From Prochlorococcus marinus str. MIT 0912 (GTDB taxonomy: Bacteria; Cyanobacteriota; Cyanobacteriia; PCC-6307; Cyanobiaceae): a stretch of 64,000 bases of DNA. Each line of letters opens with the position of its first letter. Within the stretch, counting starts at the first letter, position 1. Of the stretch, positions 3,234 through 33,606 are shown piece after piece. The notes below the pieces were generated by a model, which was not told the DNA's origin, ran no database searches, and saw nothing but the letters and a program-made list of their open reading frames with translations. The stretch spans positions 1,178,001-1,242,000 of the forward strand of contig NZ_CP114783.1 in NCBI RefSeq assembly GCF_027359595.1. Direction: 5' to 3'. Both the position numbers and the translations under genes were made by a program.

Positions 3234-4457
3234 TTAAATTCCTCGAGCTCTATTAATAAATGTTCCAGAAGACCTTTCCAGCAAGACATCATACTTACGT
3301 CGAACTGGTTGAGTCATTTGTGTAATTAAATTCGCTTTTGTATCTTTTTTCAAGAATTTAATTGGCTGAGCAGTCAAACGGAATCTAACACCATAGAAAG
3401 TTTCATCTGTTCCAGGTAATTGAGAATTAACCTTGGTATCGTTTGCAGCAATTTCATTAGAAACCCACGCTTCCAAATTAAGATTCGGTGTGGCCTGCCA
3501 ATTAATTGATCCTTCCAAACCACTATTGTCATCTGTGTCTTCATAATCCCAATTAAAGCCTCGAACAAACAAAGCTAATTCAGGATTTTTAGGAAGTCTG
3601 TACCCTGCTTCTGCATCCCAACCCGGAACGACACGCTCGGTATAACTATTACCCTTAATGGTGACGTTCTTTTTATCGGTAATAGCTAAGTACCAATTGT
3701 TTCTAAATTCAAGATCCTTCCAAAAATATTCACCACCGATACCAAGTCGACTATGTGCTGAACTGTAGTCCGTCATCCTGTAGTCCACAAAGGTATTACC
3801 TCCCCACATTGAATGGTCATTAGGACGATGACGAAACCCTAAACCCAAGTTTGCTGTCGAACCGTCGCTATCAGAACTTGTAGCAAATCTACCTTGCGAG
3901 AAAACAATACCTTTTGTATCCCCATCTTCATCATTGCCTAATTCCTTTAATTTCATCAAGCTATCAAAAGAAAAATTAGTTTCAGATTTACTACCTGCTG
4001 AAAGAGAGATACTTGTTTGAGCAAAAAATGGAATATCTTGAATCTTCTCATTGATATAACCACTAGCCAATTGATAGCCACTATCTACTAATAAACTCTT
4101 GCTATTAGAAAAAATGGTATTTGGCAACTCTGCATGATTAGATCTATTGATCGTAGGGATTAAGCTAGCAAGATAATTAGAAACAGTATTGTTAACTGAA
4201 TCCTTGGAATAAGAATCTTCTTTGCGTTGATTGTCTTGAGTTATACTACTTTCTCCGTATTCGAAGATTGTAGGTTTTTCTGACTTAGATCTTGAGAACC
4301 ATGATCTTCTAGAAGACTGGACTGAACTTTCTCCTTCAGTCATTGATAAATTTATTTTTGAAGAAAAAGAGCTTTCTAGTTCACTAGCCTTTGTGTATTG
4401 CCCTGAGGATAAAGCTAAAAGACTTGCAAATAAAAACAGCTTTGATCTTTTATTCAT
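3234..4457 (-). CDS. Inverse autotransporter-type beta-barrel outer-membrane protein (stand-alone)
   Basis: The 407-residue product begins with a signal peptide (MNKRSK, hydrophobic Leu/Ala core, cleavage near residue 24). A Ser-rich spacer of about 100 residues follows. The segment from roughly residue 115 to the end carries the pattern of the intimin/invasin inverse-autotransporter barrel (IAT_beta): LGLGFRHR, WGGNTFVDYR, SRLGIGGEYFWKDL, NNWYLAIT, GWDAEAGYRLP, FYGVRFRLT, and a C-terminal PVRRKYDVLLERSSG. In known inverse autotransporters the barrel is N-terminal and is followed by Ig-like passenger domains; here the protein stops right after the barrel. The downstream gene encodes a separate secreted protein. 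Assignment rests on motif recognition and is fairly firm for the fold, weak for function. Confidence 0.75.
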   Translation of the reverse strand: MNKRSKLFLFASLLALSSGQYTKASELESSFSSKINLSMTEGESSVQSSRRSWFSRSKSEKPTIFEYGESSITQDNQRKEDSYSKDSVNNTVSNYLASLIPTINRSNHAELPNTIFSNSKSLLVDSGYQLASGYINEKIQDIPFFAQTSISLSAGSKSETNFSFDSLMKLKELGNDEDGDTKGIVFSQGRFATSSDSDGSTANLGLGFRHRPNDHSMWGGNTFVDYRMTDYSSAHSRLGIGGEYFWKDLEFRNNWYLAITDKKNVTIKGNSYTERVVPGWDAEAGYRLPKNPELALFVRGFNWDYEDTDDNSGLEGSINWQATPNLNLEAWVSNEIAANDTKVNSQLPGTDETFYGVRFRLTAQPIKFLKKDTKANLITQMTQPVRRKYDVLLERSSGTFINRARGI

Positions 4458-4654: not shown

Positions 4655-6561
4655 TTAGCTAGCATAGCTTATAGTATTAATAATTAAGTCATTTACATAT
4701 AATTTTTCATCACCACTGACGTTAATAATTACTTGATATTTTCCATCACATCTTGGTTTTTTGGGAATATCAAATATTAATTCTTTTGTATTTGCAATAC
4801 CAGTTTCTAATGTACTGTTTGCTAATTCATTCATTATGGGATTGCTATTAACACATGTTATTTGAATAGAAGATTTATTATCATTTCCATTTAATAGTAA
4901 GCTATAAAACAATCTTAAACGATACTTACCAGGATTAAGATCAATGCTAGGAATATAAAGAATACCTTTTCCTTCTGTTACAATTAACCCCCAAAATTTA
5001 TTTGATAAAGCAATTGAAGAAATGAATTTATCTCCTCGCCATTGTTTTATATTTCTATGATTTTTTAATTTTTTTAAATTATATTCTGAAATTTTCTTGT
5101 AGTAGTCAACAAAATCGTTCTTATTATCTAAATGATAAATTTTAAGCGAACTATCTTTACATTTTCCGAATAGGTATTTAACATGAGGTGTTATATAGTC
5201 TTGATTATTTTTTGTAAGTAAATAAAAATCATTATATATACTTTCCATTGTTCCTATGTTTTGCATCCATAATCTTGGAGATCCATCTAAATTCATCACT
5301 ACTAGATCAATTCGAGGGTCATTTAATTGGACAGCATTGATATTTGCATCCCAATAATCCTGAATACCTACTCCAACTCGTTTATCTGTTTTCTTAAGTA
5401 TAAGCGAATCATTGATACACTCAGCAATATTTGTATTACGAATATTTAATCTATTGTTGTCTTTGATTTTATTAGAAAAATAATAATTTTGATATGGTAT
5501 TAGAAATAATGATGATAAAAATAAATTATAATAATTAGATAAATTATTAACTGATAATATATACAATATATTTATTAAATATATAATTATAAAAGAGTAA
5601 AAATATCTATAGTAACCATTATCAACTATTCCTCCAAGACTAGCTATTGAAAAGAAAGAAATGATAAATGATATAGAATTAATCTTATTAATCTTTTCAG
5701 CAATATCAATCTTCTTTAGCTTTAAATATATAAATATACCAATTAAAATAAGAATTATCGAAAATGGAGTAACTTCTGGATTATACTCAAAAAGCTTCTT
5801 AACTCCGATAAATATTTTATTTCCACTAGGAGTATATAATAATCTATCCCCATAAAGTTCTCATTTATATATTTTGAATAAGAAAGATAACCAAGAAAAA
5901 TACCAGATAAAATAGTTATAATATAATTTTGTTTTTCATAATATAGGAGTTTAAAAGATTTCCAAGAGTGTATATAGAGAAACTCTACAAACAGGTATGC
6001 AAATAAGTAAGATGTGGTTATGATCAAAGAAATACTAGTACTTAATCCAGTCAAAAAGCATATAAAAAATATAGTGATTAAGAATATGAATTTAAATTTT
6101 GCCCTGCCAGATATTAATCGCGGTAATATTATTAATATTAATATTAGATGAGAAAAATGATTATATTCAATTGCATATAGAGGCATATAGCCTTTTTCAT
6201 ATGATGGAATAAAAATTAAGCTGACAATCAAACTTAATAATATTGCTCGAGTATTACTAGAACTATAAATTGATTTTATAAAATATCTAAGAGATAAGAA
6301 AAGTATAATAAATTTTGATATCGCAACTGTTAATAGACTATCTTTTATAGTAAAAAATATTCTTGATGTTGCATATAAGAACTGATCGGGAAAATAAGCG
6401 GAAGCAGGCATTTGCAACCATCTATCTCCTAAGTTTATATCTCGTATATATGTATTTTGAAACACTTCCATATATAGAGAATCACTATTTATATTAATAT
6501 TTGAATTTAAAAATAATAATATAGAAAAGATCGACAAAAAAATTATAACTAATCTGTACAT
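4655..6561 (-). pseudogene. Multipass membrane protein, GT-C glycosyltransferase-like, split by a one-base frameshift
   Basis: Two minus-strand open frames, 6561-5755 (268 codons) and 5566-4655 (303 codons), belong to one gene. Translating the second frame upstream of 5566 gives uninterrupted coding back to about 5850: GDRLLYTPSGNK, then FEYNPEVTPFSIILILIG, then more hydrophobic helices joining YILSVNN. The first frame leaves this reading at NENFMG and ends soon after. Adding one base in the run at 5854-5856 (reading NENFYGDRLL) restores a single protein of about 635 residues. The N-terminal half has many transmembrane helices and an acidic SDS motif in the first loop, as in GT-C enzymes; the C-terminal 250 residues look soluble. 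It is the last gene of the operon, 4 bp after the nucleotidyltransferase gene. A real mutation and a sequencing error cannot be told apart here. Confidence 0.8.
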
Positions 6562-6565
6562 TTAT

Positions 6566-7300
6566 TTATAATATAGATTGACTAAGGAAATACTTCAAAT
6601 CCTCTGGTGTGCCTAAACCATACATATTTGAACAAGATCGATCAATATTATATAAACCAATATTCGCATTATTATTCAGCATATATTTATACACAGGTGC
6701 TACATAATATTCGCCTTTTGACATATTTTTTTCTTGAATCATTTGGCTTGCATATTTGCAAAATATATTTCCTCTAGAAAAGTTATAAATTCCAACTGTA
6801 GCTTGATTTGAAACTACGACCTTCTCAACTATATCAACGACAATTCCAGATGGATCAAATTTTATATATGACCATTTTGGATCACTTGAATACATGGTCA
6901 TAATGAAACCCTCTGATTTATTAATATCCCACATTTTTAAATATTCATCGATTGATGTATTGATCCATTGATCCGAATTCGCTATCATTAATGGATCTTT
7001 ATTATCAATATATTTTTTAGCTTCAAGTGCAGTACAAGCGGCTCCTTCAGTGATGCCATCAATGATAACAATTTCACAAGTAGGGCATAAGTTTTTGAGT
7101 AACTTATCAACTTTATATTCGTTAATATGTTCTTTTTGTACTACAAAAATAAATCTATGTTCTCTTTTTGGCCTTATATTTTCAATAACAACTTGAATCA
7201 TTGGCATTCCATTGACATCTATAAGGGGTTTAGGCCTTACATAACCTTCATTTAAGAATCTGCTCCCTCTACCTGCCATAGGTATAAGAATATTTAGCAT
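6566..7300 (-). CDS. Sugar/head-group nucleotidyltransferase with intact active site
   Basis: The 244-residue protein is a complete NTP_transferase-fold enzyme of the kind that joins NTP to a phosphorylated sugar or small alcohol phosphate. It has the nucleotide-binding PMAGRGSRF (residues 7-15), the PKPLIDVNG loop (23-31), the EGAACTALEAK region (86-96) and a metal-binding SDQW (109-112). Substrate and nucleotide cannot be read from sequence. It starts 2 bp after the cupin gene and ends 4 bp before the membrane protein, inside the tight minus-strand operon. Its overall layout, including the DPKWSY motif, matches that of the degenerate relative at 7633-8715, so the two probably arose by duplication. 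Confidence 0.85.
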   Translation of the reverse strand: MLNILIPMAGRGSRFLNEGYVRPKPLIDVNGMPMIQVVIENIRPKREHRFIFVVQKEHINEYKVDKLLKNLCPTCEIVIIDGITEGAACTALEAKKYIDNKDPLMIANSDQWINTSIDEYLKMWDINKSEGFIMTMYSSDPKWSYIKFDPSGIVVDIVEKVVVSNQATVGIYNFSRGNIFCKYASQMIQEKNMSKGEYYVAPVYKYMLNNNANIGLYNIDRSCSNMYGLGTPEDLKYFLSQSIL

Positions 7301-7302
7301 TT

Positions 7303-7632
7303 TTAATTATTATCTATAAGAATCTTATCACTTGGATTAGATGGATATTTAACTATAACTAGTGCACATTCTTCAATGCACTCGAATTTAGATATATCTC
7401 CTGGTTCTAAAAGAATAATACTTCCTTGTGTCAAAATTTGATTATACATTTTTATACTACCTGAAACCACAAGTGTTATTTCCCAAGTCTTTTCATGCAT
7501 GCTATTTGGTTCAATTTCTCCCTTTTTATAATGTTTGACACCAACTTCTATGTTCTTTGTTCTAAATATCGAGGGATCAAAATCACCAACAAACCAGCCC
7601 CTTGTAAATTGACTTAAATTATATTTCTTCAT
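7303..7632 (-). CDS. Small cupin-domain protein
   Basis: This 109-residue single-domain protein has the cupin pattern: HYKKGEIEPNSMHEKTWEITLVVSGSIKMYNQ followed by a second strand set, ILLEPGDISKFECIEECALVIVKYPS. His and Glu residues in the first motif could bind a metal, but the second motif lacks the usual conserved His. Small cupins in glycan loci can act as epimerases, isomerases or binding proteins, and this one could be any of these. Its stop is 2 bp before the next gene and its start directly abuts the end of the 360-residue nucleotidyltransferase-like gene, so it is co-translated with its neighbours. Confidence 0.75.
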   Translation of the reverse strand: MKKYNLSQFTRGWFVGDFDPSIFRTKNIEVGVKHYKKGEIEPNSMHEKTWEITLVVSGSIKMYNQILTQGSIILLEPGDISKFECIEECALVIVKYPSNPSDKILIDNN

Positions 7633-8715
7633 TCATATAATATTACTTTTTTGAAAACATTGTATAGAGCTTATTTTTTGATTCTCAAAGTTTAATATCT
7701 CTATCCCTTCAATTCTAGTACTTTTAAATTGAAGTGAAAATTGACAAATAGTCGAATCATTATCTAGGCAAGATATTTTATTAATAGAATATCTTATTAT
7801 CTCTTTTATTTCAAACAATTCTTTATAGAATATAGTGACATCTTTTATACCAATTACTTCATTAGAGAAAGGACTATCTAAATGTATAGATTTCGACATT
7901 AATTCTATGATTCTATTAATATTTTTCTTATTGAAAGACTTATAGTATTCTTCAGAAAAAAGAAGAATTTTATTATTATTACGTTCTAAATATTTTCTAA
8001 AATCATCTTTGACTGTATTTGAATAAAAATTAAAGTAATTATCTTTTTCAATTTTTGAATAAGCAACTTTTTTATTATTTATAATGAGTTCATTCAGACA
8101 GGGTGCTAAATAGAATCTTTTATTAATAAGTTCACCTCTATTAATATTATCTGATATACATTCGACCATCAAATTACCACTTGAAAAATAATAGCTACTA
8201 CTTAAAGCATTTTGACTAATCGGTACTTTTTCTTCTACCCGAGTCACAAAATTTTCATCATCAAGTTCAGCATATGACCATTTTGGATGGATAGATTGAA
8301 ATCCGATAGTGCCCGCTGATGCGCTGGTGGAATCAAAAAACTTCAGATGTGACTCTAGGTCTGTATCTATATATTGATCAGCAGAGGTAACTAAAAAAGG
8401 TTCATTTAAATTATAATTATCAATTCCCATCATAACTGCACAAGGCATTCCATTTGTATTTCTTCTCAGCCTTATTACATTGACTTCAGAATCAGTATAA
8501 AGAGGTAATACTTTATCTATATGGTTATGAGAAATGAATTCATCTGTAGAGATAAAGAAATATCTTTTATCACCTGTAAATCTTTCGATATGTTCTAAAG
8601 ACCAAGATAGTATAGAATGATCTTTAACGTGATCTAATATACTTATAGAGTTTTTACTATCAAGAGAAAAATTATCTTTTGATTGTCCATAAACAGGTAT
8701 AATTATATTCAACAT
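7633..8715 (-). CDS. Degenerate nucleotidyltransferase fold fused to an NTF2/SnoaL-like domain
   Basis: The 360-residue product has two parts. Residues 1 to about 245 follow the NTP-transferase layout of the neighbour at 6566-7300, with SADQYIDTD at 111-119, HPKWSY at 143-148 and VEEKV at 160-164. The GxGxR signature and the PKPL loop are absent: the N-terminus reads MLNIIIPVYGQSKDN and then SILDHVKDHS. Residues about 255-357 look like an NTF2/SnoaL-type cone domain (YKSFNKKNINRIIELMS, HLDSPF, then mixed strands). Loss of the phosphate-binding loop suggests a non-catalytic or regulatory subunit, or an enzyme with different chemistry. Its stop abuts the cupin start and it begins 5 bp after the HAD gene. 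No name is warranted. Confidence 0.7.
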   Translation of the reverse strand: MLNIIIPVYGQSKDNFSLDSKNSISILDHVKDHSILSWSLEHIERFTGDKRYFFISTDEFISHNHIDKVLPLYTDSEVNVIRLRRNTNGMPCAVMMGIDNYNLNEPFLVTSADQYIDTDLESHLKFFDSTSASAGTIGFQSIHPKWSYAELDDENFVTRVEEKVPISQNALSSSYYFSSGNLMVECISDNINRGELINKRFYLAPCLNELIINNKKVAYSKIEKDNYFNFYSNTVKDDFRKYLERNNNKILLFSEEYYKSFNKKNINRIIELMSKSIHLDSPFSNEVIGIKDVTIFYKELFEIKEIIRYSINKISCLDNDSTICQFSLQFKSTRIEGIEILNFENQKISSIQCFQKSNII

Positions 8716-8720
8716 TATTT

Positions 8721-9353
8721 TTACTTAGATTCTATAAAATCGATAAAATTTTTTATATTTTTATAATTCACTTCATTAACTGATTTAACTTTTAATACAT
8801 TTGCGCCCGCAGAATTTGCCGCCTCAATTCCATGATCATTATCCTCAATAATTATAACTTCTTTCGCCGTTAAATTTAATTTATATAACGCTTTAAGATA
8901 AATTTCGGGATTAGGCTTTGGATTATCAACATCTTCATTAGACAAATAAAAATCTAGAAATTTTCCTAATTTAGATAGTTCCATCATTGATTTAATTGTC
9001 TTTCTTACACTATTAGAAGCCAATGCTATTTTATATCCTTCTTCTTTTAACTTAGACAACGCATATTGATGGATAAACTTAGGTTTACATTTTACTGCAG
9101 TTATCTCCATTGTATATTTTTGCTTGAGTTCATTAATAAAATCATGAAGTTTATATGGCAATCTTCCACTCTCTGAGAGTAAATCTAATTTAGATTTTGT
9201 AGGAAGACCATCATATGTTGATTGATGTTCCGAAAATTCAATCTCCTCTCCAAAAACAGCTAAAGCTTTATTCAAGGCTTGATAATGCCATTCTTTTGCA
9301 TCTATTAAAACACCATCCATATCAAATATTACAGCCTTAATCTTCAAGATCAT
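8721..9353 (-). CDS. HAD-superfamily phosphatase/phosphomutase (beta-phosphoglucomutase-like)
   Basis: The product is a subclass I HAD hydrolase of about 210 residues: catalytic DMDGV (Asp11 and Asp13 from the chosen start), a helical cap with WHYQALNKAL, motif II LASNSVRKT, a conserved Lys in the PKPNPEIYLKAL segment, and motif IV IIEDNDHGIEAA. It may dephosphorylate or isomerise a small phosphate ester in the same pathway as the nucleotidyltransferases. I chose ATG at 9351-9353 (MILKIKAVIF); an ATG at 9377 would add eight hydrophobic residues and overlap the upstream gene more. Even with the shorter start it overlaps the GDPD gene by 17 bp, which suggests translational coupling. Confidence 0.8.
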   Translation of the reverse strand: MILKIKAVIFDMDGVLIDAKEWHYQALNKALAVFGEEIEFSEHQSTYDGLPTKSKLDLLSESGRLPYKLHDFINELKQKYTMEITAVKCKPKFIHQYALSKLKEEGYKIALASNSVRKTIKSMMELSKLGKFLDFYLSNEDVDNPKPNPEIYLKALYKLNLTAKEVIIIEDNDHGIEAANSAGANVLKVKSVNEVNYKNIKNFIDFIESK

Positions 9354-10002
9354 AATTAAAATGAAGATAAGCTTCATCAGCTTTATCTGTACATATTAAC
9401 ACAGTATTCCTCTTAAAATCTTTACTCTTAATCCATTCTTTAAGGCTATTCCAAAAAGCATTTGTTTGTCTTCCATGCAATTCAGGTGATACAAAGCATA
9501 AGAAATAATTTTGTTCAATATAATTTTCTAAAAAGCTAAATGAAGGATAATCTCCATAAAATGAATCAACCCACAAACCTTTTGCCTTTTCTAATAAGAT
9601 TGGAGATTCCTCAAGATCACTCACCCTAGAAAGAAATTTTACTAGTTTATCATTTGCATAATTTACTGTTTCAGGAATAGACATATCAAATAAAAAATAA
9701 TTTTCTATACTATATTTCTGTAATAAGGATAAAGTTTTGTCTTTAATTCCATCACATTTTACATTTAATAGTAAAGGTAAATTTTTACCAAGATCATTAT
9801 AAATTAATAGAAATTTATCCAATGAAATTAAATTATCATTAATGGGTATATCATGAGAAATTACTATTTCACCATTCCTCTCTCTGATATCCGTTTCTAT
9901 TCCATAATTATTACTTAATGCAAGCTTAAATGCATTCTCTGTATTTTGCTCATGTTCCTTTTTCCAGAGACCTCGATGACAAACTATTCCAATATTATTC
10001 AT
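9337..10002 (-). CDS. Glycerophosphodiester phosphodiesterase-family protein
   Basis: From the ATG at 10000-10002 the product has 221 residues and shows the GDPD pattern: CHRG (His9, Arg10), NTENAF, the metal ligands in IETDIR (Glu36, Asp38) and SHD (His50), then a TIM-barrel-like run of strands. GDPD enzymes release an alcohol and glycerol-3-phosphate from glycerophosphodiesters. It is slightly shorter than most family members, but the known active-site residues are present. In this operon it could supply glycerol phosphate or a head group from phospholipids, or remove a glycan decoration; both are inference. The chosen start overlaps the end of the GT2 gene by 8 bp; a longer start at 10026 would overlap it by 32 bp. 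Confidence 0.8.
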   Translation of the reverse strand: MNNIGIVCHRGLWKKEHEQNTENAFKLALSNNYGIETDIRERNGEIVISHDIPINDNLISLDKFLLIYNDLGKNLPLLLNVKCDGIKDKTLSLLQKYSIENYFLFDMSIPETVNYANDKLVKFLSRVSDLEESPILLEKAKGLWVDSFYGDYPSFSFLENYIEQNYFLCFVSPELHGRQTNAFWNSLKEWIKSKDFKRNTVLICTDKADEAYLHFNYDLED

Positions 10003-10801
10003 GGTTATATTTCTCATTATTTTCATATATAATATTGGCTGAATAAGTATAATCTTTGTTATTAGATTTATCCCTATTTATAAAAGATCTATGATTTAAA
10101 CAATATTGAGTTAACAAGTTCAGAGTGAAGAGTGCCTGTCTTGAAATTTTTACATTGGATACTTGATCTTCTTCTCGCCAAGTTATTGGAATAAATCGAA
10201 TAGCTCTTTTTCTATAGGAGTGAGATATAATGCCACAATAGTCGAAAGTTAAATCATTGGAAAATTTCAAATAATCTTTTTCTAAAAACGAACTTAATTT
10301 ATATATATTAATACCAGAACCTAAATCTAAAACTTCTTGATTCAAGGCCATACTAAAGATCTTGTTATATACTTTATTACCAAATGTTCTAAACCAAGAG
10401 TAGTTATACAACTTGGAATCAGGATGAAATCTAGCTCCCAAAGTGCAATCAAAATTCTCTATAGATTTGTCAATTATATAAGGTAATATGTCTGATAAAT
10501 CACCTTGATCATCTCCATGAAGTACTAACAGATAATCATAATTATTCTCAATCGCAAAATTAAAACCTATTTTAAGTGTCCCTCCATAACCTACATTTTT
10601 TTTGTTTGAGCAAAGGATTCCATTAATATTTTTGTTGAATTTCAATGCTTTTATTGCTTCATTAACAGTATTATCTTCACTTTGATTTTCAATTATTAAA
10701 ACGTTCTGAATTAAACCTGAGACCCTCTCATCGAATTTGCTTATAACTCTTGAGATCTGCCTGGCACAATTGTATGCAGGAATTACTGCTAATATTTTCA
10801 C
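9995..10801 (-). CDS. Family 2 glycosyltransferase (DPM-like)
   Basis: The 268-residue protein is a GT-A fold, family 2 transferase: VIPAYNCARQI at the N-terminus, IIENQSEDNT, a KNVGYGGTLKIG segment, the metal-binding LHGDDQ (DxD-like) and a GSGINIY motif. No membrane helices are apparent, so it may act at the inner face of the membrane on a lipid-linked acceptor. It is the first gene of the minus-strand operon running to 4655. The 135 bp upstream, before the end of the metalloprotease gene, would contain the operon promoter, though I see no clear -10/-35 pair. Confidence 0.85.
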   Translation of the reverse strand: MKILAVIPAYNCARQISRVISKFDERVSGLIQNVLIIENQSEDNTVNEAIKALKFNKNINGILCSNKKNVGYGGTLKIGFNFAIENNYDYLLVLHGDDQGDLSDILPYIIDKSIENFDCTLGARFHPDSKLYNYSWFRTFGNKVYNKIFSMALNQEVLDLGSGINIYKLSSFLEKDYLKFSNDLTFDYCGIISHSYRKRAIRFIPITWREEDQVSNVKISRQALFTLNLLTQYCLNHRSFINRDKSNNKDYTYSANIIYENNEKYNHE

Positions 10802-10936: not shown

Positions 10937-13900
10937 TCAACTCAATCCAGTCATTTCAGTAAAGAGAGCATCATTTTCATCTGAGATAGCAAAATTCATG
11001 AGAACGTCTGATCTGCTCTGTTCTTCTTTATTTAAACTTCCCACCCAATAGTTAAAACCATCTTCATCTGGTAAACGGTCATACACATTGCGATACAAGG
11101 TCGTGACATATTCTTCAGTGGTCACGTTCTCTCCATAACGACTTTTAAATTCAGCTGATCGAACAAATGATGCAGCAACAACTTTCTTTGTATTAATCCC
11201 AGAACTATAGACATTAATCCAATATTTCAAACCTTCGGCATCAGGGAATCGTTTAAAGGCAGCGTTATAGAGTTGGAACATTTCACCAGAGGGATCAGTT
11301 AATCCAGTGACTTGATCAAAGGTCGCTTTAATATCAGCAATAGCACTGACATCACGTAAGGCACTTGTTGTGTCTTCTCCAGAAAATCTCAATAAGGGAT
11401 AGCCAGTGATGTCGTCATAACCAGAGTCAGTCTTGATTTCATATTTTCCATTGCCTCTGTTGTAGAACTTGTATTCATGATAATTACCGCTATAGGTTTT
11501 AACGACGTCTACTTTTGATGCTTCTACGGTTTGATCTGAGAATTGAATGTATTCAATATTTTTGAGAGTATCTGTTCCATCAGTTGTTCCTGTTGTCCTT
11601 TGGTCGGCGATTTCCAGAGTATTTGTTCCACGGGTAAAGGCGTAGTCTGAAAACTTTCCTGAGAAAGTGACAGTATCTGTTCCACCTAGACCATCGATAT
11701 AATCATTTCTTGAAGTGGTTTGGGACAAATCATTTCCATCAGTCGATAAAATTTCATTCAAATCATTGATATTGACTATTAGATATTGACTTGAGCTATT
11801 ACCTTGAGTGTCAGTTGCAATTACATTGACATTATATTTATTAGGCGCAATTGTAGAATAATTATCTGCAAGACTAATTGTCTTAAACGTTAGAAAATTG
11901 TCTGGTTGAACACCTAACGTCGAATCATAATTAAGTAAAGGTAACTGAGAAAAAACACTATTAGAATAATAATTAGAAGCATTATAAATTGTTGCATTGG
12001 AGAGTTCTTCTAAAACATCAAATCCATCTGCCAACACTCGTCCAAAGACAGTAAATCCACCATTAGATGAATCTAAAGATACATTATCTGAAAGATTGAA
12101 ATACCACTGAGATGTAGCGCTATCTGGATCACCTGGAACCTTTGCCATGGCAATGGTTCCAATCTTATTAGAATTCCCTGGTTCATTAAAAATAGTTCCT
12201 TTTGAAAGGATCGAAATAGGTGCATATGATGCTGAAATAGGTGCCGTATAACCCCCACCTTGCAAAACAGCATTCGAAACGGATCGATGAATAATTGTAT
12301 TTTGATAGGAGGAATCATTGACATAAGCAAGAAAATTATTGGCTGTGGTCGACGTTAAGGTGCTAGCGGAACCATTTTGATCAAACAGTTCTATATATAG
12401 ATCACTTGGGTTGCCTGACAAATTGGTTTCTACTTTGACAACAGTTCCAGAAGGAGTAAATGGGATTTCATAATCAGGTTTTTGTTTAAAAGTTAGTACA
12501 CCACTTGCACTATCAATTTGAAATAAAGAGCTAGAAAGTTGATCTATTGACCAGGTAACAGTCTCATTAGCATTGAATGTATGTACAACTGCGTTATTTT
12601 CAAAAACATTTGTTTTAGAAGTGGGTGCACCAGAGCTGTTAGCTGGGCCAAAAATTAAAGGCTTGATTTCATCCACATCACTAACTAACAAGTTGAAGGC
12701 TTGTTCCAAGGTTTTTCCACCGCTATCAATCGTTCTGACACGAATGCTATATATCGACTTCGTCTCGTAATCAGGGCTCGTCTGGATCTTTATGCTATTT
12801 CCACTAATCAAAAACGAGCTATTATCTGTATCTCCGCTTCCACTAACTAACGTATAACTATGACTATCTGTGGCGTCTTCATCACTGGTGAAAAGCGTCG
12901 CTACCGTTACATTCGCTGGAATATTCTCATCAATACTTAAACTGCTCAGCTTGATTTCTGTTGGCGCTTCATTTAAATCATTGACACTTAAAGAAAACGT
13001 TTGAGCAAAAGTTTTCCCTCCATCATCTTCTGATTGTAATCGAATGCTATAAGTCGACTTTGCTTCGTAATCTGGTGAGTTTTTAATAAAAAGTGATGCC
13101 CCAGAAATTGTAAATAGATCATTATCCGTATCACCATTACCACTCACAAATGAATACGTATGACTATCGCTAGCATCAGGATCAGTTGAGGAAATTATTC
13201 CCAAGATTGAATTCGCTGCAATATTTTCATCAATACTTAAACTGCTCAGCTTGATTTCTGTTGGCGCTTCATTTAAATCATTGACACTTAAAGAAAACGT
13301 TTGAGCAAAAGTTTTCCCTCCATCATCTTCTGATTGTAATCGAATGCTATAAGTCGACTTTGCTTCGTAATCTGGTGAGTTTTTAATAAAAAGTGATGCC
13401 CCAGAAATTGTAAATAGATCATTATCCGTATCACCAGTACCACTCACAAATGAATACGTATGACTATCGCTAGCATCAGGATCAGTTGAGGAAATTATTC
13501 CCAAGATTGAATTCGCTGCAATATTTTCATCAATACTTAAACTGCTCAGCTTGATTTCTGTTGGCGCTTCATTTAAATCATTGACACTGAGAACGAATTG
13601 CTTCTCCGTAGATAGATTATTACTATCAACTGCTTTTACTCGAATACTATAGGTTGGTGTCGCTTCAAAATCTGGTATAAAATTAATTTTCAAATTTGAT
13701 TGGTCAATCGTAAACATTGCATTATCTGTATCACCTTCACCAGAAACAAAAGAATAAGTAGTTGAGTTAACCTCTTCTTGATTAATATTAGTTAAATTAG
13801 AAATAATTGTATTAGATGATAGATTCTCATTGAAAAGTCGAGTAGATAGATCAATCTCTGGAGATTCAGGGATGTTATCTACATAGAGGTTGATATAATT

Positions 13901-15187
13901 ATCAAAAGTCAAGCCCCCGCTATCTGTAGATTGAATAGCTACCCGATATGTTGATTTTTGCTCATAGTCAGGAGTAGTTAAAATATATAATTGATTATTC
14001 TGAATCCGAAAATATTGATTATCTGTATATAAATTTGTATTAAATAGCTTATAAGTATGGGAGTCTAAGTGATCAACATCAGCTGTATATATTGTAGATA
14101 TAATAGTATCGGCTTGAATATTTTCATTAAATCTAACATTGGATAAATAAACTAATACAGGTGCTTCATTAACATCACTGACATTCAAAGTGAATGCTTT
14201 CGAAAAACTATTATTAGATTGATCAGTCGAGGAAATTCTTACTTTATATAAATTCTTGATTTCATAATTTGGAGTACTATTAATAATTAAATTATTACCC
14301 GTAATAGTAAAAAGATTATTATCATCATCGTCCTCACCCAAAACCAATGAATATGAATGAGTATCTAAATTATCGGGGTCGGTTGTTGAGATATTCGCAA
14401 CATTACTATTAGCAAATATATTTTCCTGAAAAATAGTCGAAGATAATGATATATCAGAAGGAGCAGACCCAGATTCAACACCATAAATCAACTGTAAAGC
14501 TGATATATCTGTAGCCGTAAAAAATGGTGTAGCAGTTCCTGTATCAACAAAATTATAAGACATTAATGTATCACTAGAATCATGCCAACTACCATATGGG
14601 TCTTCTACTTCTCCTTCTTTTGTAGGATGAGATAAACCTAAAGCATGGGCAATTTCATGCAAAATGACATAAGCATCAAATGAATTTAAACTTGGATAAT
14701 TAGCTAAAATAGATCTATTACTATTACTACTTAAATTAAAAGTAACATCGCTATTATATTTATAAGTCCAGCGAGATTTAGTAAAGCTATAGTTCTCTAA
14801 CCAAGGCAATGACCATGCAACACCTGCACTCGACTCATATCCAGGGATAGTTGCTCTATAAATATCAATAGATGAATCACTTTCATTAAAAACTCTAGTA
14901 AAATCTAAATCAATTAATGGATCTAATTGAGTAAAAGAATCAACTATAAAATTCTTAATATCTTGATCAATATTATAAGTTGAAATTCTACCTTGATAAG
15001 AGTAATCTCTATAACTACCAAAATTTTTAAATAAATAACTACCAGTTATATCATGTATATAATAAGTCGCATTTGCTGTCCAAGAATGGTCATCATACCC
15101 CCAACTATCTTCTATTGAATATCTATAACTGGATGTACTATCTGATAAGAAATAACTTTTCGCTAATTCAGTACTAACAACTGCCAT
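10937..15187 (-). CDS. M10 metalloprotease-cadherin-cyclophilin-DUF4214 protein, presumptive type I secretion substrate
   Basis: The 1416-residue mosaic protein has no Sec signal peptide. Residues 1-240 form a serralysin/matrixin-type zinc protease: HEIAHALGLSH at 177-187 (HExxHxxGxxH) and the Met-turn SDTLMSY at 205-211. Six cadherin-like repeats of about 100 residues follow (roughly 250-840), each ending with an NEAP- or DVDE-type linker. Residues about 910-1105 match a cyclophilin peptidyl-prolyl isomerase (NTIIHRSV, LQGGGY, GTIAMAK, SQWYFNLSDN, FTVFGRV). A beta-rich RTX-like stretch (1145-1225) and two DUF4214 modules (about 1300-1350 and 1355-1405) complete it. DUF4214 occurs often in type I-secreted surface proteins. 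The gene is divergent from the exporter operon at 15334, so export by that system is a reasonable inference. Confidence 0.85.
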   Translation of the reverse strand: MAVVSTELAKSYFLSDSTSSYRYSIEDSWGYDDHSWTANATYYIHDITGSYLFKNFGSYRDYSYQGRISTYNIDQDIKNFIVDSFTQLDPLIDLDFTRVFNESDSSIDIYRATIPGYESSAGVAWSLPWLENYSFTKSRWTYKYNSDVTFNLSSNSNRSILANYPSLNSFDAYVILHEIAHALGLSHPTKEGEVEDPYGSWHDSSDTLMSYNFVDTGTATPFFTATDISALQLIYGVESGSAPSDISLSSTIFQENIFANSNVANISTTDPDNLDTHSYSLVLGEDDDDNNLFTITGNNLIINSTPNYEIKNLYKVRISSTDQSNNSFSKAFTLNVSDVNEAPVLVYLSNVRFNENIQADTIISTIYTADVDHLDSHTYKLFNTNLYTDNQYFRIQNNQLYILTTPDYEQKSTYRVAIQSTDSGGLTFDNYINLYVDNIPESPEIDLSTRLFNENLSSNTIISNLTNINQEEVNSTTYSFVSGEGDTDNAMFTIDQSNLKINFIPDFEATPTYSIRVKAVDSNNLSTEKQFVLSVNDLNEAPTEIKLSSLSIDENIAANSILGIISSTDPDASDSHTYSFVSGTGDTDNDLFTISGASLFIKNSPDYEAKSTYSIRLQSEDDGGKTFAQTFSLSVNDLNEAPTEIKLSSLSIDENIAANSILGIISSTDPDASDSHTYSFVSGNGDTDNDLFTISGASLFIKNSPDYEAKSTYSIRLQSEDDGGKTFAQTFSLSVNDLNEAPTEIKLSSLSIDENIPANVTVATLFTSDEDATDSHSYTLVSGSGDTDNSSFLISGNSIKIQTSPDYETKSIYSIRVRTIDSGGKTLEQAFNLLVSDVDEIKPLIFGPANSSGAPTSKTNVFENNAVVHTFNANETVTWSIDQLSSSLFQIDSASGVLTFKQKPDYEIPFTPSGTVVKVETNLSGNPSDLYIELFDQNGSASTLTSTTANNFLAYVNDSSYQNTIIHRSVSNAVLQGGGYTAPISASYAPISILSKGTIFNEPGNSNKIGTIAMAKVPGDPDSATSQWYFNLSDNVSLDSSNGGFTVFGRVLADGFDVLEELSNATIYNASNYYSNSVFSQLPLLNYDSTLGVQPDNFLTFKTISLADNYSTIAPNKYNVNVIATDTQGNSSSQYLIVNINDLNEILSTDGNDLSQTTSRNDYIDGLGGTDTVTFSGKFSDYAFTRGTNTLEIADQRTTGTTDGTDTLKNIEYIQFSDQTVEASKVDVVKTYSGNYHEYKFYNRGNGKYEIKTDSGYDDITGYPLLRFSGEDTTSALRDVSAIADIKATFDQVTGLTDPSGEMFQLYNAAFKRFPDAEGLKYWINVYSSGINTKKVVAASFVRSAEFKSRYGENVTTEEYVTTLYRNVYDRLPDEDGFNYWVGSLNKEEQSRSDVLMNFAISDENDALFTEMTGLS
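12961..13560 (-). repeat. Two nearly identical 300-bp tandem repeats encoding adjacent cadherin-like domains
   Basis: The blocks 12961-13260 and 13261-13560 match base for base except for one substitution that I can see (caccattac near 13131 against caccagtac near 13431). Each encodes one 100-residue cadherin-like repeat of the metalloprotease, changing a single Thr to Asn. The shared sequence continues for about 30 bases on each side before diverging. This indicates a recent duplication or gene conversion inside the gene. Confidence 0.95.
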
Positions 15188-16303: not shown

Positions 16304-19252
16304 ATGGAAAATAATTTCGAATTAAATCTTAAAGATATTAAAGCATTTCAAAATTTATCAACACAAGGTTTAGAAAAAATAAAAAAGAAAAGTAGATTCA
16401 TAAAATATAATTTAGGCCAAATAATTTCACAAAATTTTATTATACCTAATTCAATCAATTTAATTATTACGGGAGAAGCAAGACTATTGTCTAAAAAAGA
16501 TTCAAAAACTGAGACCGTTACCAAATTGGGTCAAGGATTATTTACTGGTCTTGGATCTTTTCTTAACGTAAAAGCTTGTGAAGAAATTACAGCATCTTCT
16601 GAATTACAATGTCTTGCACTTGAAGATGAGTTAATACTGGATTTGTATCTAAGTGAGCCTTCATTTTATAAATGGTGTAATAGCAATGCACAGCCGGGAG
16701 AAATACAATTGCTAGCTGAAAATTTAATCACAAAATCAACTAGAAATGATATAAATTTAAAAGCTGCATTTCAACAATTAATTAACAATAGTAAGATTAA
16801 AATAGTCGAAAATAATAATGATCTGATTTTAAATAAAGACTTAACTACCATAGTATCAAGTAATAATGTTATTGACAATAACGTTGGAGATATTATCGAA
16901 GATAATAGTAAAATAAAAACAAAAGGTCCATTACCCGCAAGATTTATTGAAATCCCTAAAAATCTTTTTAAAGCTTTTATCTCAACTCCACAAAATACTG
17001 CAGGAATCGAAACCAAAGAAATTTCTTCTTTAAAGAACAATAATCTCGAAAATGCCCCTCTTTTGCCTGAAGTAAGTGGGACAGATATTGGGCAAATTTA
17101 TCAAGAAGAAAATTTTGAGATCATTACTGCAGAAGGAAGCCTAAAAGAAACGCAAGCATGCCTAGAAATGCTCGCAAGAGAAATGGATTTGCCTTTCAGA
17201 AAGGATGCAGTTGAAAAAGTTCTAAGAGATACTATTAGGGGTGGAGAACAGCCTACCTTACAAATATGTGGTTCCATTGCTGCAATCCTTGGGCTCCATG
17301 CAACAGGAGCAAAAATTCCAAGACAATTTGCAAATAGATTGCAAACACCTTCAATTATTACTTGGAAAGAATCTTTTGCCCTAGTAATTAATAGCAATGC
17401 CAAATTTCTAACAATTGCTTCTCCAAAAGAAGGATTGTTGAAAATTTCATCAACTGAATTTGAATCAAAGCTACCAGATTTTCTTGAAGTTTTACTGGTA
17501 GAAAAAACATACATGACTCCAGAAAAAAAATTTGGGATTGACTGGTTTTGGCCCGCACTTAAAAAACACAAAAATGTTTTAATTCAAGTTCTACTAGCTT
17601 CTTTTGTCGTACAACTGTTTGGATTAGCAAACCCTCTTTTAATCCAAGTTATTATCGACAAGGTTATTAGCCAAAGAAGTCTAGATACATTACAAATACT
17701 AGGTTTTGCACTAGTTATTGTGACTATTTTAGGAGGGATACTTGGAAGTTTGAGAACATTTTTATTTACCGAAACAACTAATAGAATTGATACAAGATTA
17801 GGTGCAGAGGTTATAGATCATTTATTACGTTTACCATTAAAATATTACGACAAAAGACCTGTAGGGGAACTAGCAAGCAGAATTTCAGAATTAGAAAAAA
17901 TTAGGAATTTCCTAACTGGTCAAGCACTGACAACACTTTTAGATGCATGCTTTTCGTTGATTTATATTTTGGTTATGGTAATTTACAGCTGGTTATTAAC
18001 ATTAATCGCCCTAGGAGTTGTTCCATTACAAATACTTTTAACTCTCATTGGAACACCCCTGATCAGAAGACAAATACGTGATGTTGCTCAAGAAAATGCA
18101 AAAACACAAAGTCATTTAATAGAAGTTCTGACAGGTATACAAACTGTCAAAGCCCAAAATGTTGAAACAGTTAGTCGTTGGAAATGGCAAGATTTATACA
18201 ATAAATATATAGCAAGAACTTTCGAGAAAACAATTACTGGAACAGCTTTAAACGAGACCAGTAACGTACTTCAACAACTTTCTCAGCTATTAGTTTTATG
18301 GGTTGGTGCCACCTTGGTTCTCAATGGACAACTAACTTTGGGTCAGTTAATAGCCTTCAGAATAATATCTGGATACGTAACCCAACCAATTCTTAGATTG
18401 AGCAGTATCTGGCAAAATATACAAGAACTTAGAGTCTCGTTTGAAAGGCTCGCAGATATAGTAGATACTCAAGAAGAATCAAGTGAAGCCGATAAATCCA
18501 ACATTCCTCTTTCAAGTATTAAGGGTCATGTTCGCTTTCATGATATTTGCTTTGGATTTAATCAAAACGATCAAGTTCTAAATACAATTAATTTAGAAAT
18601 TTCACCTGGCAAATTCATAGGAATTGCAGGACAAAGTGGCAGTGGCAAAAGTACGTTAATGAAACTTTTACCAAGGTTATATCAACCACAAAAAGGAAAA
18701 ATATTAATAGATGATTTAGATATTTCTAAAGTTGAACTTTATTCTTTAAGAAGACAAATAGGAATTGTTCCACAAGATCCACTTTTATTTTCAGGAACAA
18801 TTAGTGACAATATTGCATTAACCAACCCAAATGTTTCAAGCGAAGAAATAGTTGAAGCCGCCAAAATAGCAGGCGCACATGAATTCATCATGGAATTACC
18901 TATGGGCTATAGTTCTAATGTTGGGGAGAGAGGAGCTGGTTTATCAGGAGGGCAAAGACAAAGAATTGCCATTGCCAGAACAATTTTAAGCAAGCCAAAA
19001 TTACTAATTATGGACGAAGCAACGAGTGCACTCGATTATGATACTGAGCGAAAAGTTTGTGAAAATATTAAACGTGCATCGAAAGGTACAACATGCTTTT
19101 TTATCACCCACAGATTAAATACAATCAGAAATGCGGATATGATCGTTTTATTACACAAAGGAGTTCTTGATGAAAAAGGAACTCATCAAGAATTAATGGA
19201 AAATAAAGGTAGATACTATGCCTTATTTAGACAGCAGGAGTCGAGCGAATGA
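16304..19252 (+). CDS. Type I secretion ABC exporter with a CNBD-like and a C39-like N-terminal region
   Basis: The 982-residue HlyB-like exporter has an unusually long N-terminus. Residues about 15-130 resemble a cyclic-nucleotide-binding fold but lack the usual phosphate-binding Arg cassette. A disordered linker follows, then residues about 280-405 look like a C39-like domain without the catalytic Cys-Asp-Cys-Gly or His context. The transmembrane domain spans about 415-690. The ATPase domain has Walker A GQSGSGKST (776-784), signature LSGGQ (880-884), Walker B LLIMDE (900-905) and the switch His936. It should export unprocessed substrates directly from the cytoplasm with the HlyD-type adaptor, whose start codon overlaps its stop by 4 bp. 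The TolC partner must be elsewhere. Confidence 0.92.
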   Translation: MENNFELNLKDIKAFQNLSTQGLEKIKKKSRFIKYNLGQIISQNFIIPNSINLIITGEARLLSKKDSKTETVTKLGQGLFTGLGSFLNVKACEEITASSELQCLALEDELILDLYLSEPSFYKWCNSNAQPGEIQLLAENLITKSTRNDINLKAAFQQLINNSKIKIVENNNDLILNKDLTTIVSSNNVIDNNVGDIIEDNSKIKTKGPLPARFIEIPKNLFKAFISTPQNTAGIETKEISSLKNNNLENAPLLPEVSGTDIGQIYQEENFEIITAEGSLKETQACLEMLAREMDLPFRKDAVEKVLRDTIRGGEQPTLQICGSIAAILGLHATGAKIPRQFANRLQTPSIITWKESFALVINSNAKFLTIASPKEGLLKISSTEFESKLPDFLEVLLVEKTYMTPEKKFGIDWFWPALKKHKNVLIQVLLASFVVQLFGLANPLLIQVIIDKVISQRSLDTLQILGFALVIVTILGGILGSLRTFLFTETTNRIDTRLGAEVIDHLLRLPLKYYDKRPVGELASRISELEKIRNFLTGQALTTLLDACFSLIYILVMVIYSWLLTLIALGVVPLQILLTLIGTPLIRRQIRDVAQENAKTQSHLIEVLTGIQTVKAQNVETVSRWKWQDLYNKYIARTFEKTITGTALNETSNVLQQLSQLLVLWVGATLVLNGQLTLGQLIAFRIISGYVTQPILRLSSIWQNIQELRVSFERLADIVDTQEESSEADKSNIPLSSIKGHVRFHDICFGFNQNDQVLNTINLEISPGKFIGIAGQSGSGKSTLMKLLPRLYQPQKGKILIDDLDISKVELYSLRRQIGIVPQDPLLFSGTISDNIALTNPNVSSEEIVEAAKIAGAHEFIMELPMGYSSNVGERGAGLSGGQRQRIAIARTILSKPKLLIMDEATSALDYDTERKVCENIKRASKGTTCFFITHRLNTIRNADMIVLLHKGVLDEKGTHQELMENKGRYYALFRQQESSE

Positions 19253-20301
19253 AATTAAAAAAATTACCTATCAAAAAAAAGCTGAATGAATTATCAATTA
19301 CGGCCAAAGATTTTATAGAAAAAAATATAAATATTACCCCAAAAAAATGGATTGAATATTTACAAGATTCGTTAGAGAAAGGAGTAATTACAAGGCAAGA
19401 AGAGGTGGTTTTAAATCAACCCAAATATTGGGCTAGGGCAATAAGTTGGTCATTGATGGGAGGTACAGCATTTGGAGTGCTCTGGCTATCACTCGGTAAG
19501 ACAGAAGAAATTATTGTTGCGACAGGAAAATTAGAGCCAATAAAAGGAGTCATTGAAATTCAAATGCCTTTAGAAGGAATCACCAAGAAAGTTTTGGTCA
19601 AAGAAGGAGAGAAAGTAGTGAAAGGGCAGAAATTAATTCAATTAGACACTGAAATTTCAATAGCGAAAAGACAAGCATTAGAAGAAAGTCTCAAAATCAA
19701 CAACGATATTCTCTCTAGGCTAAAAATACTCGTAAGAGAAGGTGCGGTATCAGAATTACAATACCTTCAACAAGAAAATAAAATCGCAGAACTCAAAAGT
19801 CAGATCAAAGAAAGTAACGTCATAATCAAATATCAAGAACTCATATCACCCTCAGATGGAATGGTTTTTGATTTAAAACCAAAAGGTCCTGGCTTTGTAG
19901 CTCGTACAAGTGAACCAGTACTGAAGATTGTACCGACTGATTTTCTACAAGCCAGAGTTGAAATACCAAGTAGATCAATAGGGTTTGTCAGTGTCAATAA
20001 AAAAGCAGATATTAGTATTGATTCATTTCCAGCCACTGACTTCGGTGTAATAAGTGGAGTAGTAAAACGGATAGGCTCTGATGCATTACCACCAATACCA
20101 GCTCAAGGTTTGGGATATCGATTCCCAGCAGACATTACATTAGACACTCAATTTTTAGAAATGAAAACTGGAAAACGACTCAAACTACCTTTGCAACCAG
20201 GAATGAGTCTCACAGCAAATATTAAACTTAGAAAAGTATCTTATTTGCAATTGTTATTAGGTACCTTTAACGATAAAGCAAAATCACTGAAACAACTTTG
20301 A
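19249..20301 (+). CDS. HlyD-type membrane fusion protein (type I secretion adaptor)
   Basis: The 350-residue protein has a cytoplasmic N-terminus of about 65 residues, one transmembrane helix (SWSLMGGTAFGVLWLSL), and the lipoyl/barrel segments VATGKLEPIKGVIEIQMPLEG and ISPSDGMVFDLKP on either side of a short coiled coil (EESLKINNDILSRLK). The C-terminal part (LQPGMSLTANIKL) is typical of HlyD adaptors. The coiled coil is shorter than in HlyD itself, so the periplasmic reach may be smaller. ATGA overlap with the ABC gene shows translational coupling. The operon ends at a strong bidirectional hairpin 68 bp downstream. Confidence 0.92.
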   Translation: MKLKKLPIKKKLNELSITAKDFIEKNINITPKKWIEYLQDSLEKGVITRQEEVVLNQPKYWARAISWSLMGGTAFGVLWLSLGKTEEIIVATGKLEPIKGVIEIQMPLEGITKKVLVKEGEKVVKGQKLIQLDTEISIAKRQALEESLKINNDILSRLKILVREGAVSELQYLQQENKIAELKSQIKESNVIIKYQELISPSDGMVFDLKPKGPGFVARTSEPVLKIVPTDFLQARVEIPSRSIGFVSVNKKADISIDSFPATDFGVISGVVKRIGSDALPPIPAQGLGYRFPADITLDTQFLEMKTGKRLKLPLQPGMSLTANIKLRKVSYLQLLLGTFNDKAKSLKQL

Positions 20302-20368
20302 GCCATCAAAATAAAAAATAAGTAAGACTGGATCAAGATAAAATTTCAATTTCTAAGACAAAACATTA

Positions 20369-20400
20369 AAAAGGCTGCTTATCAAATAAGCAGCCTTTTA
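20369..20400. terminator. Bidirectional Rho-independent terminator
   Basis: A perfect inverted repeat, ggctgcttat / ataagcagcc with a 3-base loop, is bounded by an A-run on one side and a T-run on the other. It lies between the convergent ends of the adaptor gene (plus) and the giant repeat gene (minus), so it can terminate both transcripts. Confidence 0.92.
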
Positions 20401-20425
20401 TATAGTCTCAATTGAACTAAATTAA

Positions 20426-32625: not shown

Positions 32626-33606
32626 GTGAGCCAAACCATATTTGTTTTTGGATGTACGGGACAAGACGGATCATTGATTTGCCAATCCCTGCTTAAAAAA
32701 AAATTTAAAGTCATTGGATTTTCAAGAAAATCAGACCCAAACAGAAACAACCATGAATTATTAGGAATTAGTAAGGATTTTGAAATTCATCAAATTGATT
32801 TCAAAAACCCTAAAGTAATCAAAAAAGCTATTGACAGATTTCATCCCTCTGAAATCTATAATCTTGGGGCACAATCATCTGTTGGGAAATCATATGTAGA
32901 AGTAAGCGAAACACTTGAAAGCATCGTTAATGCCACAGTCAACATCCTTCAGTCATCCAAAGAAGTTCAATATGACGGCAAAATATTTTTTGCCGGGAGT
33001 GGTGAGATTTATGGCGAAACAAATTTAGCTGCCAAACGCTCTACTCCTCCAAATCCACAAAGTCCTTATGGAATTGCAAAGGCGTGTTGCCTGAATTATG
33101 TAAAATTCTATAGAGAAGTTTATAAATTGAACTGTGTCTCAGGAATATTATTTAATCATGAATCAATTCTTCGTTCAGATCAATTTGTAACTAAAAAAAT
33201 AATTAAAAATGCACTAAAGTGTCTAAAAAATAAAAATCATAAGCTGAAAGTTGGAAACATTGATATTGCTAGAGATTGGGGTTGGGCTGATGAATATGTT
33301 GAAGCAATGCAAATTATAACAAGATCAAAAATTTTAAAGGATCAAATAATTTGCACAGGCACTCTTACAAAGTTAAAAGATTTTATACAGATTACCTTCG
33401 AGAAACTAGGCTTGAAATGGGAAGATTACGTCGAAATTGATAAAAAACTTTTTCGCAGATCAGAAATATCTCGAAACTTCGGTAATCCAATACAATTGAA
33501 ACAAGAGTTGGGTTGGGAATCTAGGTTGAAGATTAGTCAAATCATAGAGAATATGATCAATCATGAAATAATTTTCTGCAAAGATAATATCAACTCAACG
33601 CATTAA
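32626..33606 (+). CDS. GDP-mannose 4,6-dehydratase-like NAD-dependent sugar dehydratase/epimerase
   Basis: The 326-residue protein starts at GTG (32626-32628). It is a shorter, diverged relative of GMD with GCTGQDGS at 9-16, a GSGEIYG active-site segment (124-130) and the catalytic YGIAK at 148-152, then NHESILRSDQFVTKK, closely paralleling the GMD consensus. The classical RR segment that binds the cofactor phosphate is replaced by FSRKSD. It probably acts on a nucleotide sugar (GDP-mannose or similar) for glycan synthesis. Its last 17 bp overlap the 3' end of the convergent glycosyltransferase gene. Confidence 0.85.
   Translation: MSQTIFVFGCTGQDGSLICQSLLKKKFKVIGFSRKSDPNRNNHELLGISKDFEIHQIDFKNPKVIKKAIDRFHPSEIYNLGAQSSVGKSYVEVSETLESIVNATVNILQSSKEVQYDGKIFFAGSGEIYGETNLAAKRSTPPNPQSPYGIAKACCLNYVKFYREVYKLNCVSGILFNHESILRSDQFVTKKIIKNALKCLKNKNHKLKVGNIDIARDWGWADEYVEAMQIITRSKILKDQIICTGTLTKLKDFIQITFEKLGLKWEDYVEIDKKLFRRSEISRNFGNPIQLKQELGWESRLKISQIIENMINHEIIFCKDNINSTH

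Follow-up and report, generated by a model that had tools for sequence, protein, structure and literature searches.

Organization of the operon

The window analysed here (the whole stretch of 64,000 nucleotides, positions 1,178,001-1,242,000 of the forward strand of contig NZ_CP114783.1, assembly GCF_027359595.1) lies in the 1.9 Mb, single-contig genome of Prochlorococcus marinus str. MIT 0912, for which Prochlorococcus sp. AG-402-L09 is the closest named relative among the search matches. It contains a minus-strand operon of six intact genes at 6566-10801 which, read from 10801 down, code for a family 2 glycosyltransferase (GT2), a GDPD-like protein, a HAD enzyme, a nucleotidyltransferase domain fused to an NTF2 domain (NTPa-NTF2), a small cupin and a second nucleotidyltransferase (NTPb) (Table 1). 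The last five belong to a module found in many phyla, and we propose that they probably make a nucleotide-activated sugar for a surface glycan.

The genes are tightly packed, with intergenic gaps of 5, 0, 2 and 4 bp and two overlaps that measure 32 and 41 bp when the longest open reading frames (ORFs) are used, and 8 and 17 bp with the later Met starts that the start positions of relatives favor for the GDPD-like and HAD genes. An original prediction from the sequence had listed seven minus-strand genes with overlaps or gaps of 0-5 bp; six of the genes stand, but the seventh is half of a frameshifted one. The region is low in GC and flexible (27% versus about 35%). Promoter and terminator scans gave scores no better than those of shuffled sequence, and a scan for RNA families matched only a tRNA.

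Table 1. Genes of the operon in the window and of a related plasmid cluster (aa, amino acids).
Feature	Position	Strand	Basis and remarks
GT2 glycosyltransferase, polyprenyl-phosphate-sugar-synthase-like (AglJ/DPMS-like)	9995..10801	-	PF00535 E 1.7e-11; no transmembrane segment
GDPD-like TIM-barrel protein	9337..10026	-	start probably Met9 (10002); predicted model, Foldseek, alignments
HAD sugar phosphatase / beta-phosphoglucomutase-like	8721..9377	-	start probably Met9 (9353); PF13419 E 2e-34
NTPa, degenerate nucleotidyltransferase domain fused to NTF2/SnoaL domain (360 aa)	7633..8715	-	GxGxR lost
Small cupin, new family with KGWFVGNFxP motif	7303..7632	-	alignment, predicted model, Foldseek
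NTPb, canonical sugar-phosphate nucleotidylyltransferase (AGxGSRF...PKP)	6566..7300	-	PF00483 E 8e-12
Interrupted gene, ~640-aa multi-pass membrane protein, candidate GT-C	4655..6561	-	two-frame tblastn; frameshift near 5848-5851
L140 cluster (NZ_CP145712.1, E. coli plasmid p5-S1-CAM-01-A)	6022-14984		NTP-NTP / GtrA / GT2 / GDPD-like / membrane-anchored PRK kinase / HAD / class II aldolase

A module conserved across phyla

The gene order GDPD-like, HAD, NTPa, (NTF2), cupin, NTPb defines a recurrent module present across many phyla. Relatives of the GDPD-like protein occur in 11 of 201 genomes of the family (whole-genome search), in 16 of 386 genomes of the phylum (profile search), and 273 times in a profile scan of one collection of genome contigs; a profile was needed, as a single-sequence scan of the same contigs with the GDPD-like protein of the window gave 0 matches. 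Eighty of the 273 loci were retrieved (individual loci carry L numbers below), and the 72 with a clear GDPD ORF form the denominator for the counts of loci given next. These loci were chosen by the GDPD-like protein alone, and neighboring genes played no part in the selection.

Three features recur. First, the HAD gene is directly next to the GDPD-like gene in 67 of the 72 loci, and GDPD-like, HAD and NTPa are consecutive in 59. Second, 64 loci have NTPb nearby and 51 have the cupin. Among genes that do not belong to the module WavE is the most frequent, being near in 21 loci (15 of 111 neighbors); glycosyltransferases and NDP-sugar dehydratases (NDP, nucleoside diphosphate) are other neighbors, and the setting is that of surface-glycan loci. 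Third, the proteins are fused in various ways: NTPa with NTPb in L016, L017, L122, L123 and L127, HAD with cupin and NTPb with NTF2 in L076, and NTPa with NTF2 in the window, while NTF2 is a standalone gene between NTPa and the cupin in L105, L109, L110, L112, L130 and L132. The retention of gene order in distant phyla indicates that the grouping is more than chance, and because module proteins are fused in different lineages we see strong evidence for a single pathway. Clustering of the five enzyme types had been offered as a check on the prediction, with gene order conserved nowhere else as the outcome that would count against it; the types do cluster, in 14 phylum-level groups, and the order is clearly conserved.

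The hosts include gut Gastranaerophilales, bee-gut Gilliamella, marine Bacteroidota, cyanobacteria, Campylobacter and Acinetobacter, and most module homologues on annotated plasmids are labelled "hypothetical protein" or have misleading names. A close relative of the HAD is present in only 3 of 41 genomes of the genus. The rows of the GDPD tree represent 14 phylum-level groups; the three Prochlorococcus proteins group together (support 100/99) and phyla are otherwise intermixed, which suggests that the module may have spread horizontally, although mixing of phyla in a tree is no proof of this. Phage and viral collections did not contain the module. A viral contig (L144, IMG/VR) does code for a distant relative of the GDPD-like protein, with 28% identity over query residues 42-156.

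The GDPD-like protein

Neither Pfam nor NCBIfam gives a match for the GDPD-like protein. Its predicted model (AlphaFold2, mean pLDDT 94) finds GDPDs as its best matches in the PDB, namely 3i10 (Foldseek E 3.6e-8) and 1zcc, and the HRG, E-x-D and HD motifs are kept, with H17, R18, G19, E44, D46 and H58 invariant in 48 sequences. However, where UgpQ has NIEIK, the third metal-ligand Glu is replaced by Asn88 in all 48 relatives, a pairing of ExK with NxK judged by eye, because the profile alignment covers the N-terminal part only and stops before this motif. The spacing from HD to NxK is about 30 residues compared with about 60 in UgpQ, so that the usual GDPD insertion is absent. With this Asn and without the insertion, phosphodiester salvage is not established, and the protein, which resembles a GDPD in predicted fold and in motifs, has only putative GDPD activity. 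It lacks a hydrophobic N-terminus and is therefore predicted to be cytoplasmic.

The nucleotidyltransferase pair

The two nucleotidyltransferases differ sharply in their motifs. NTPb has both GxGxR (as AGxGSRF) and PKP in 63 of 63 relatives. GxGxR is absent from NTPa in 61 of 61 relatives, PK-like residues are kept in 40 of the 61, and NTPa is missing altogether from the complete loci L076, L097 and L134. Two catalytic nucleotidyltransferases had been predicted, but since the 360-aa NTPa has lost this nucleotide-binding motif in every relative we read it as a non-catalytic partner, and to judge from these motifs the two are probably one enzyme plus a pseudo-enzyme.

The closest solved relative of NTPb is 4evw (profile search, E 8e-26), a Vibrio cholerae nucleotidyltransferase for which no published role was found in the open-access literature. 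NTPb resembles guanylyltransferases only modestly, and an IspD match in the module (E 0.004) is below the cut-off. Labels in this family can mislead. In L136 (NZ_AP025274.1) the gene at 11232-11993 is labelled 'glycosyltransferase family 2' and its Pfam match is NTP_transferase (NTPb); the gene after HAD, in the NTPa position, bears the same label. A general pairing of GT2 with GDPD in loci with the five-gene module (type-1 loci) was considered and dropped, the NCBI-labelled "GT2" before GDPD on a P. alcaligenes plasmid being NTPb by Pfam.

The HAD enzyme and the cupin

The HAD enzyme is nearest to carbohydrate phosphatases and beta-phosphoglucomutases, its closest solved relative being the carbohydrate phosphatase TM_1254 (3kbb), and it is under every curated equivalog cut-off: it scores 113.6 bits against TIGR02009 (cut-off 153) and 95.8 bits against the beta-phosphoglucomutase model TIGR01990 (cut-off 189). 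For neither this protein nor NTPb do the closest solved relatives point to a substrate. No Pfam family matches the cupin. Its AlphaFold2 model (mean pLDDT 95) matches generic cupins in the PDB, among them 3h8u, phosphomannose isomerase 7zvm and KdgF (Foldseek); it thus appears, as modelled, to share the fold of cupin sugar-phosphate isomerases such as 7zvm. Most relatives have the metal motif HxH-x4-E, whereas the cupin in the window has lost the first His of this motif.

GT2, GtrA and an interrupted membrane protein

The best NCBIfam match of the GT2 is AglJ (E 4.8e-10, far below its cut-off), and similarity to PpgS is also well below the cut-off. It is 65% identical to the GT2 of L056, which adjoins a GtrA gene. 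L015 and L024/L056 share the order GtrA, GT2, GDPD, HAD, NTPa-NTF2, cupin, NTPb, membrane protein, the last of these being intact. This gene order, together with the resemblance of GT2 to polyprenyl-phosphate-sugar synthases, suggests loading of a lipid carrier, flipping, and transfer outside. A GT2 of this type would also imply an NDP-sugar rather than a CDP-polyol (CDP, cytidine diphosphate), and so points away from the phosphate-linked head group that had been predicted.

The membrane protein, by contrast with the complete one proposed at 5755-6561, is represented there by half a gene. When the intact 640/642-aa proteins of L015 and L024, two related Prochlorococcus genomes, are used as tblastn queries, the ORFs at 5755-6561 and 4655-5566 align to the first and last parts of a single protein in two frames: frame +1 with 44% identity up to reverse-complement base 714, and frame +3 with 37-38% from base 711. 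A GGGG run at about 5848-5851 adjoins the frameshift site, and the shift may be a true mutation, a phase-variation switch or an assembly error. The intact relatives have 7 predicted transmembrane segments, and this candidate GT-C protein has no Pfam match.

Distant clusters with related GDPD-like proteins

A second set of clusters is present in picocyanobacteria, in other genomes of the same phylum and on an IncR E. coli plasmid (L140, Table 1). These combine a related GDPD-like protein with tandem nucleotidyltransferase (NTP) domains, GT2, GtrA and large membrane proteins, and their sugar-supply genes vary, being either a class II aldolase and HAD or alcohol dehydrogenases with a ribulose-phosphate epimerase and an isomerase-like protein; the plasmid cluster adds a PRK/uridine-kinase domain to the aldolase and HAD. 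Of 5426 E. coli genomes just 2 have the plasmid cluster, with an identity of 99% or more. In the window, L015, L018, L020, L023 and L140 the GDPD-like gene comes immediately after the GT2 gene. We infer from these arrangements that the GDPD-like protein is tied to activation and transfer more than to any one sugar source, and its constancy beside the NTP pair while the sugar-supply genes change is the main argument against plain salvage.

Proposed pathway and alternatives

The gene set, order, fusions, motifs, folds and broken gene were computed here, and from them every catalytic step, the substrate and the acceptor are inferred. With a probability of roughly 0.6, the product of the five core genes is a single nucleotide-activated sugar destined for a surface glycan, with export by GT2, GtrA and the membrane protein in these Prochlorococcus. 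The cupin would isomerize or epimerize a sugar phosphate, the HAD enzyme would remove or move a phosphate, and NTPb would join the sugar phosphate to a nucleoside triphosphate. NTPa would serve NTPb as a partner subunit without catalytic activity, in the way that GMPPA accompanies GMPPB, and the NTF2 domain would have an accessory part. We take the GDPD-like protein to be a probable cytoplasmic, metal-dependent enzyme of the phosphodiesterase type that acts on a phosphodiester or diphosphate intermediate of the pathway itself and not on phospholipid-derived glycerophosphodiesters. In these Prochlorococcus GT2 would load the NDP-sugar onto polyprenyl phosphate, GtrA (its gene adjacent in two relatives, not in the window) would flip the lipid-linked sugar, and the 640-aa membrane protein would transfer the sugar outside. 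The predicted functional unit for nucleotide activation and surface transfer is thus likely, with its individual steps revised.

Several points weigh against this reading. The roles of all members are putative, the substrate is not deducible from sequence, and both HAD and NTPb are far below all curated equivalog cut-offs. Most type-1 loci are without the GT2/GtrA/membrane-protein set, which therefore looks like a local addition, and the candidate GT-C identity of the membrane protein derives from size, number of transmembrane segments and context. GtrA is absent from the operon in the window (there is one copy elsewhere in the genome) and the membrane-protein gene is interrupted, so that export may fail in this strain and the lipid-linked GT2/GtrA/GT-C route is probably broken.

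As originally proposed, the GDPD-like protein would free a phosphorylated small molecule from a phosphodiester for trimming by the HAD enzyme, activation by a nucleotidyltransferase and attachment as a phosphate-linked head group. The retained H17, R18, E44, D46 and H58 in a GDPD fold, the presence of HAD and NTPb in nearly all loci, and the precedent that CDP-polyols offer in Campylobacter jejuni HS:5 and S. pneumoniae 35A (PMC10918830) are in keeping with this. Nonetheless it seems quite improbable. The GT2 points to an NDP-sugar donor, and LicD, TagF and Stealth-type phosphotransferases are not among the recurrent module neighbors. Salvage by an ordinary phosphodiesterase is disfavored in that the third catalytic/metal Glu and the insertion are gone from the family, the protein is predicted to be cytoplasmic, and it stays with the NTP pair whichever enzymes supply the sugar. 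That same constancy, and the position directly after GT2 in six clusters, would suit a housekeeping or proofreading enzyme that takes no step in the pathway and destroys wrongly made donor, either NDP-sugar or polyprenyl-phosphate-sugar. Adjacency alone does not define such a role, and in most type-1 loci the GDPD-like gene is the first of the module with no such GT2 present; we regard this explanation as unlikely, if somewhat less so than the preceding one. Pathways to methyl-phosphoramidate (there is no glutamine kinase or amidoligase in the module), phosphocholine/LicD and phosphonate were ruled out by gene content.

The retention of NTPa in most loci, and of its PK-like residues in many relatives, could also mean that NTPa is itself catalytic, as a nucleotidyltransferase that uses another substrate or another chemistry, which would give two activated sugars. 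The universal loss of GxGxR, the fusions to NTPb in several lineages and the complete loci that lack NTPa make this rather doubtful. Finally, a low-GC flexible region with few counterparts in the genus might hold surface-glycan genes that came together by chance in a genomic island and form no single pathway, an idea already contradicted by the gene order kept across phyla and the multiple fusions, and to which we give almost no credence.

A single pathway to one activated sugar thus remains our preferred interpretation. More tentatively, it is possible, if on balance doubtful, that this is a mobile, phylum-spanning surface-glycan pathway to an undescribed NDP-sugar, where the GDPD-fold enzyme, its metal site changed, carries out a new reaction on an activated sugar and the nucleotidyltransferases form a catalytic/pseudo-enzyme pair. 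A module this widespread (273 GDPD-like loci in one collection) may account for a portion of many surface polysaccharides that has no assigned origin, and its five small soluble proteins make a defined set whose product is directly readable. Two protein families also come to notice, one with a GDPD fold whose active site is changed and the other of nucleotidyltransferase pseudo-enzymes.

Surroundings of the operon

Directly upstream of the operon, at 10937-15187, is the gene for a 1416-aa protein with cadherin repeats, a cyclophilin-type peptidyl-prolyl isomerase domain and a C-terminal DUF4214; L015 has a subtilase/cadherin protein in its place. At 16304-32116 a type I secretion ABC transporter (with a C39-like domain) and its HlyD partner are convergent with a gene for a 3896-aa DUF4214 repeat protein, in which the local GC is about 42% compared with 33% around it. 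Given the proximity of the operon to the two DUF4214 proteins and the secretion pair, one may speculate that a secreted surface protein is a glycan acceptor. The gene at 3234-4457 codes for a short protein (407 aa) with an inverse autotransporter beta domain (IAT_beta E 9.8e-62) and no clear passenger. Two GDP-mannose 4,6-dehydratase family genes are at 702-1760 and 32626-33606, the second much more divergent, and a 1224-aa multi-domain GT4 protein (33590-37264) is in the same surface-glycan region as both.

Comparison with known systems

No described pathway with this gene set was found in the open-access literature, in agreement with the original prediction, in which the combination was not recognised as one already described. 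Its parts nonetheless recall several known systems. GDPDs such as E. coli UgpQ, 1zcc and 3i10 share the TIM-barrel fold and the HRG, E-x-D and HD motifs with the window family, which differs in the invariant Asn at the third metal position, the missing insertion and the lack of a Pfam match. GMPPA and GMPPB are a catalytic/regulatory nucleotidyltransferase pair in which GMPPA is the partner of GMPPB; NTPb and NTPa would be analogous as one canonical and one motif-less homologous protein, although NTPa carries an NTF2 domain and the similarity to guanylyltransferases is modest. The Prochlorococcus relatives resemble GtrA/GtrB/GtrC glycosylation systems in having a DPMS-like GT2, GtrA and a large multi-pass membrane protein, but their set carries its own sugar-activation genes, and the window has no adjacent GtrA and a broken membrane protein.

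There is also a parallel in overall design with the CDP-6-glucitol and CDP-mannitol pathways (C. jejuni HS5.17/HS5.18 and S. pneumoniae Mnp1/Mnp2), which use an IspD-type (PF01128) cytidylyltransferase and an NAD(P)-dependent reductase (PMC10918830). Both these and the module are small operons in which a nucleotidyltransferase activates, or would activate, an unusual building block of a surface polysaccharide, but the module in the window has PF00483-type enzymes, HAD, cupin and the GDPD-like protein, and no reductase.

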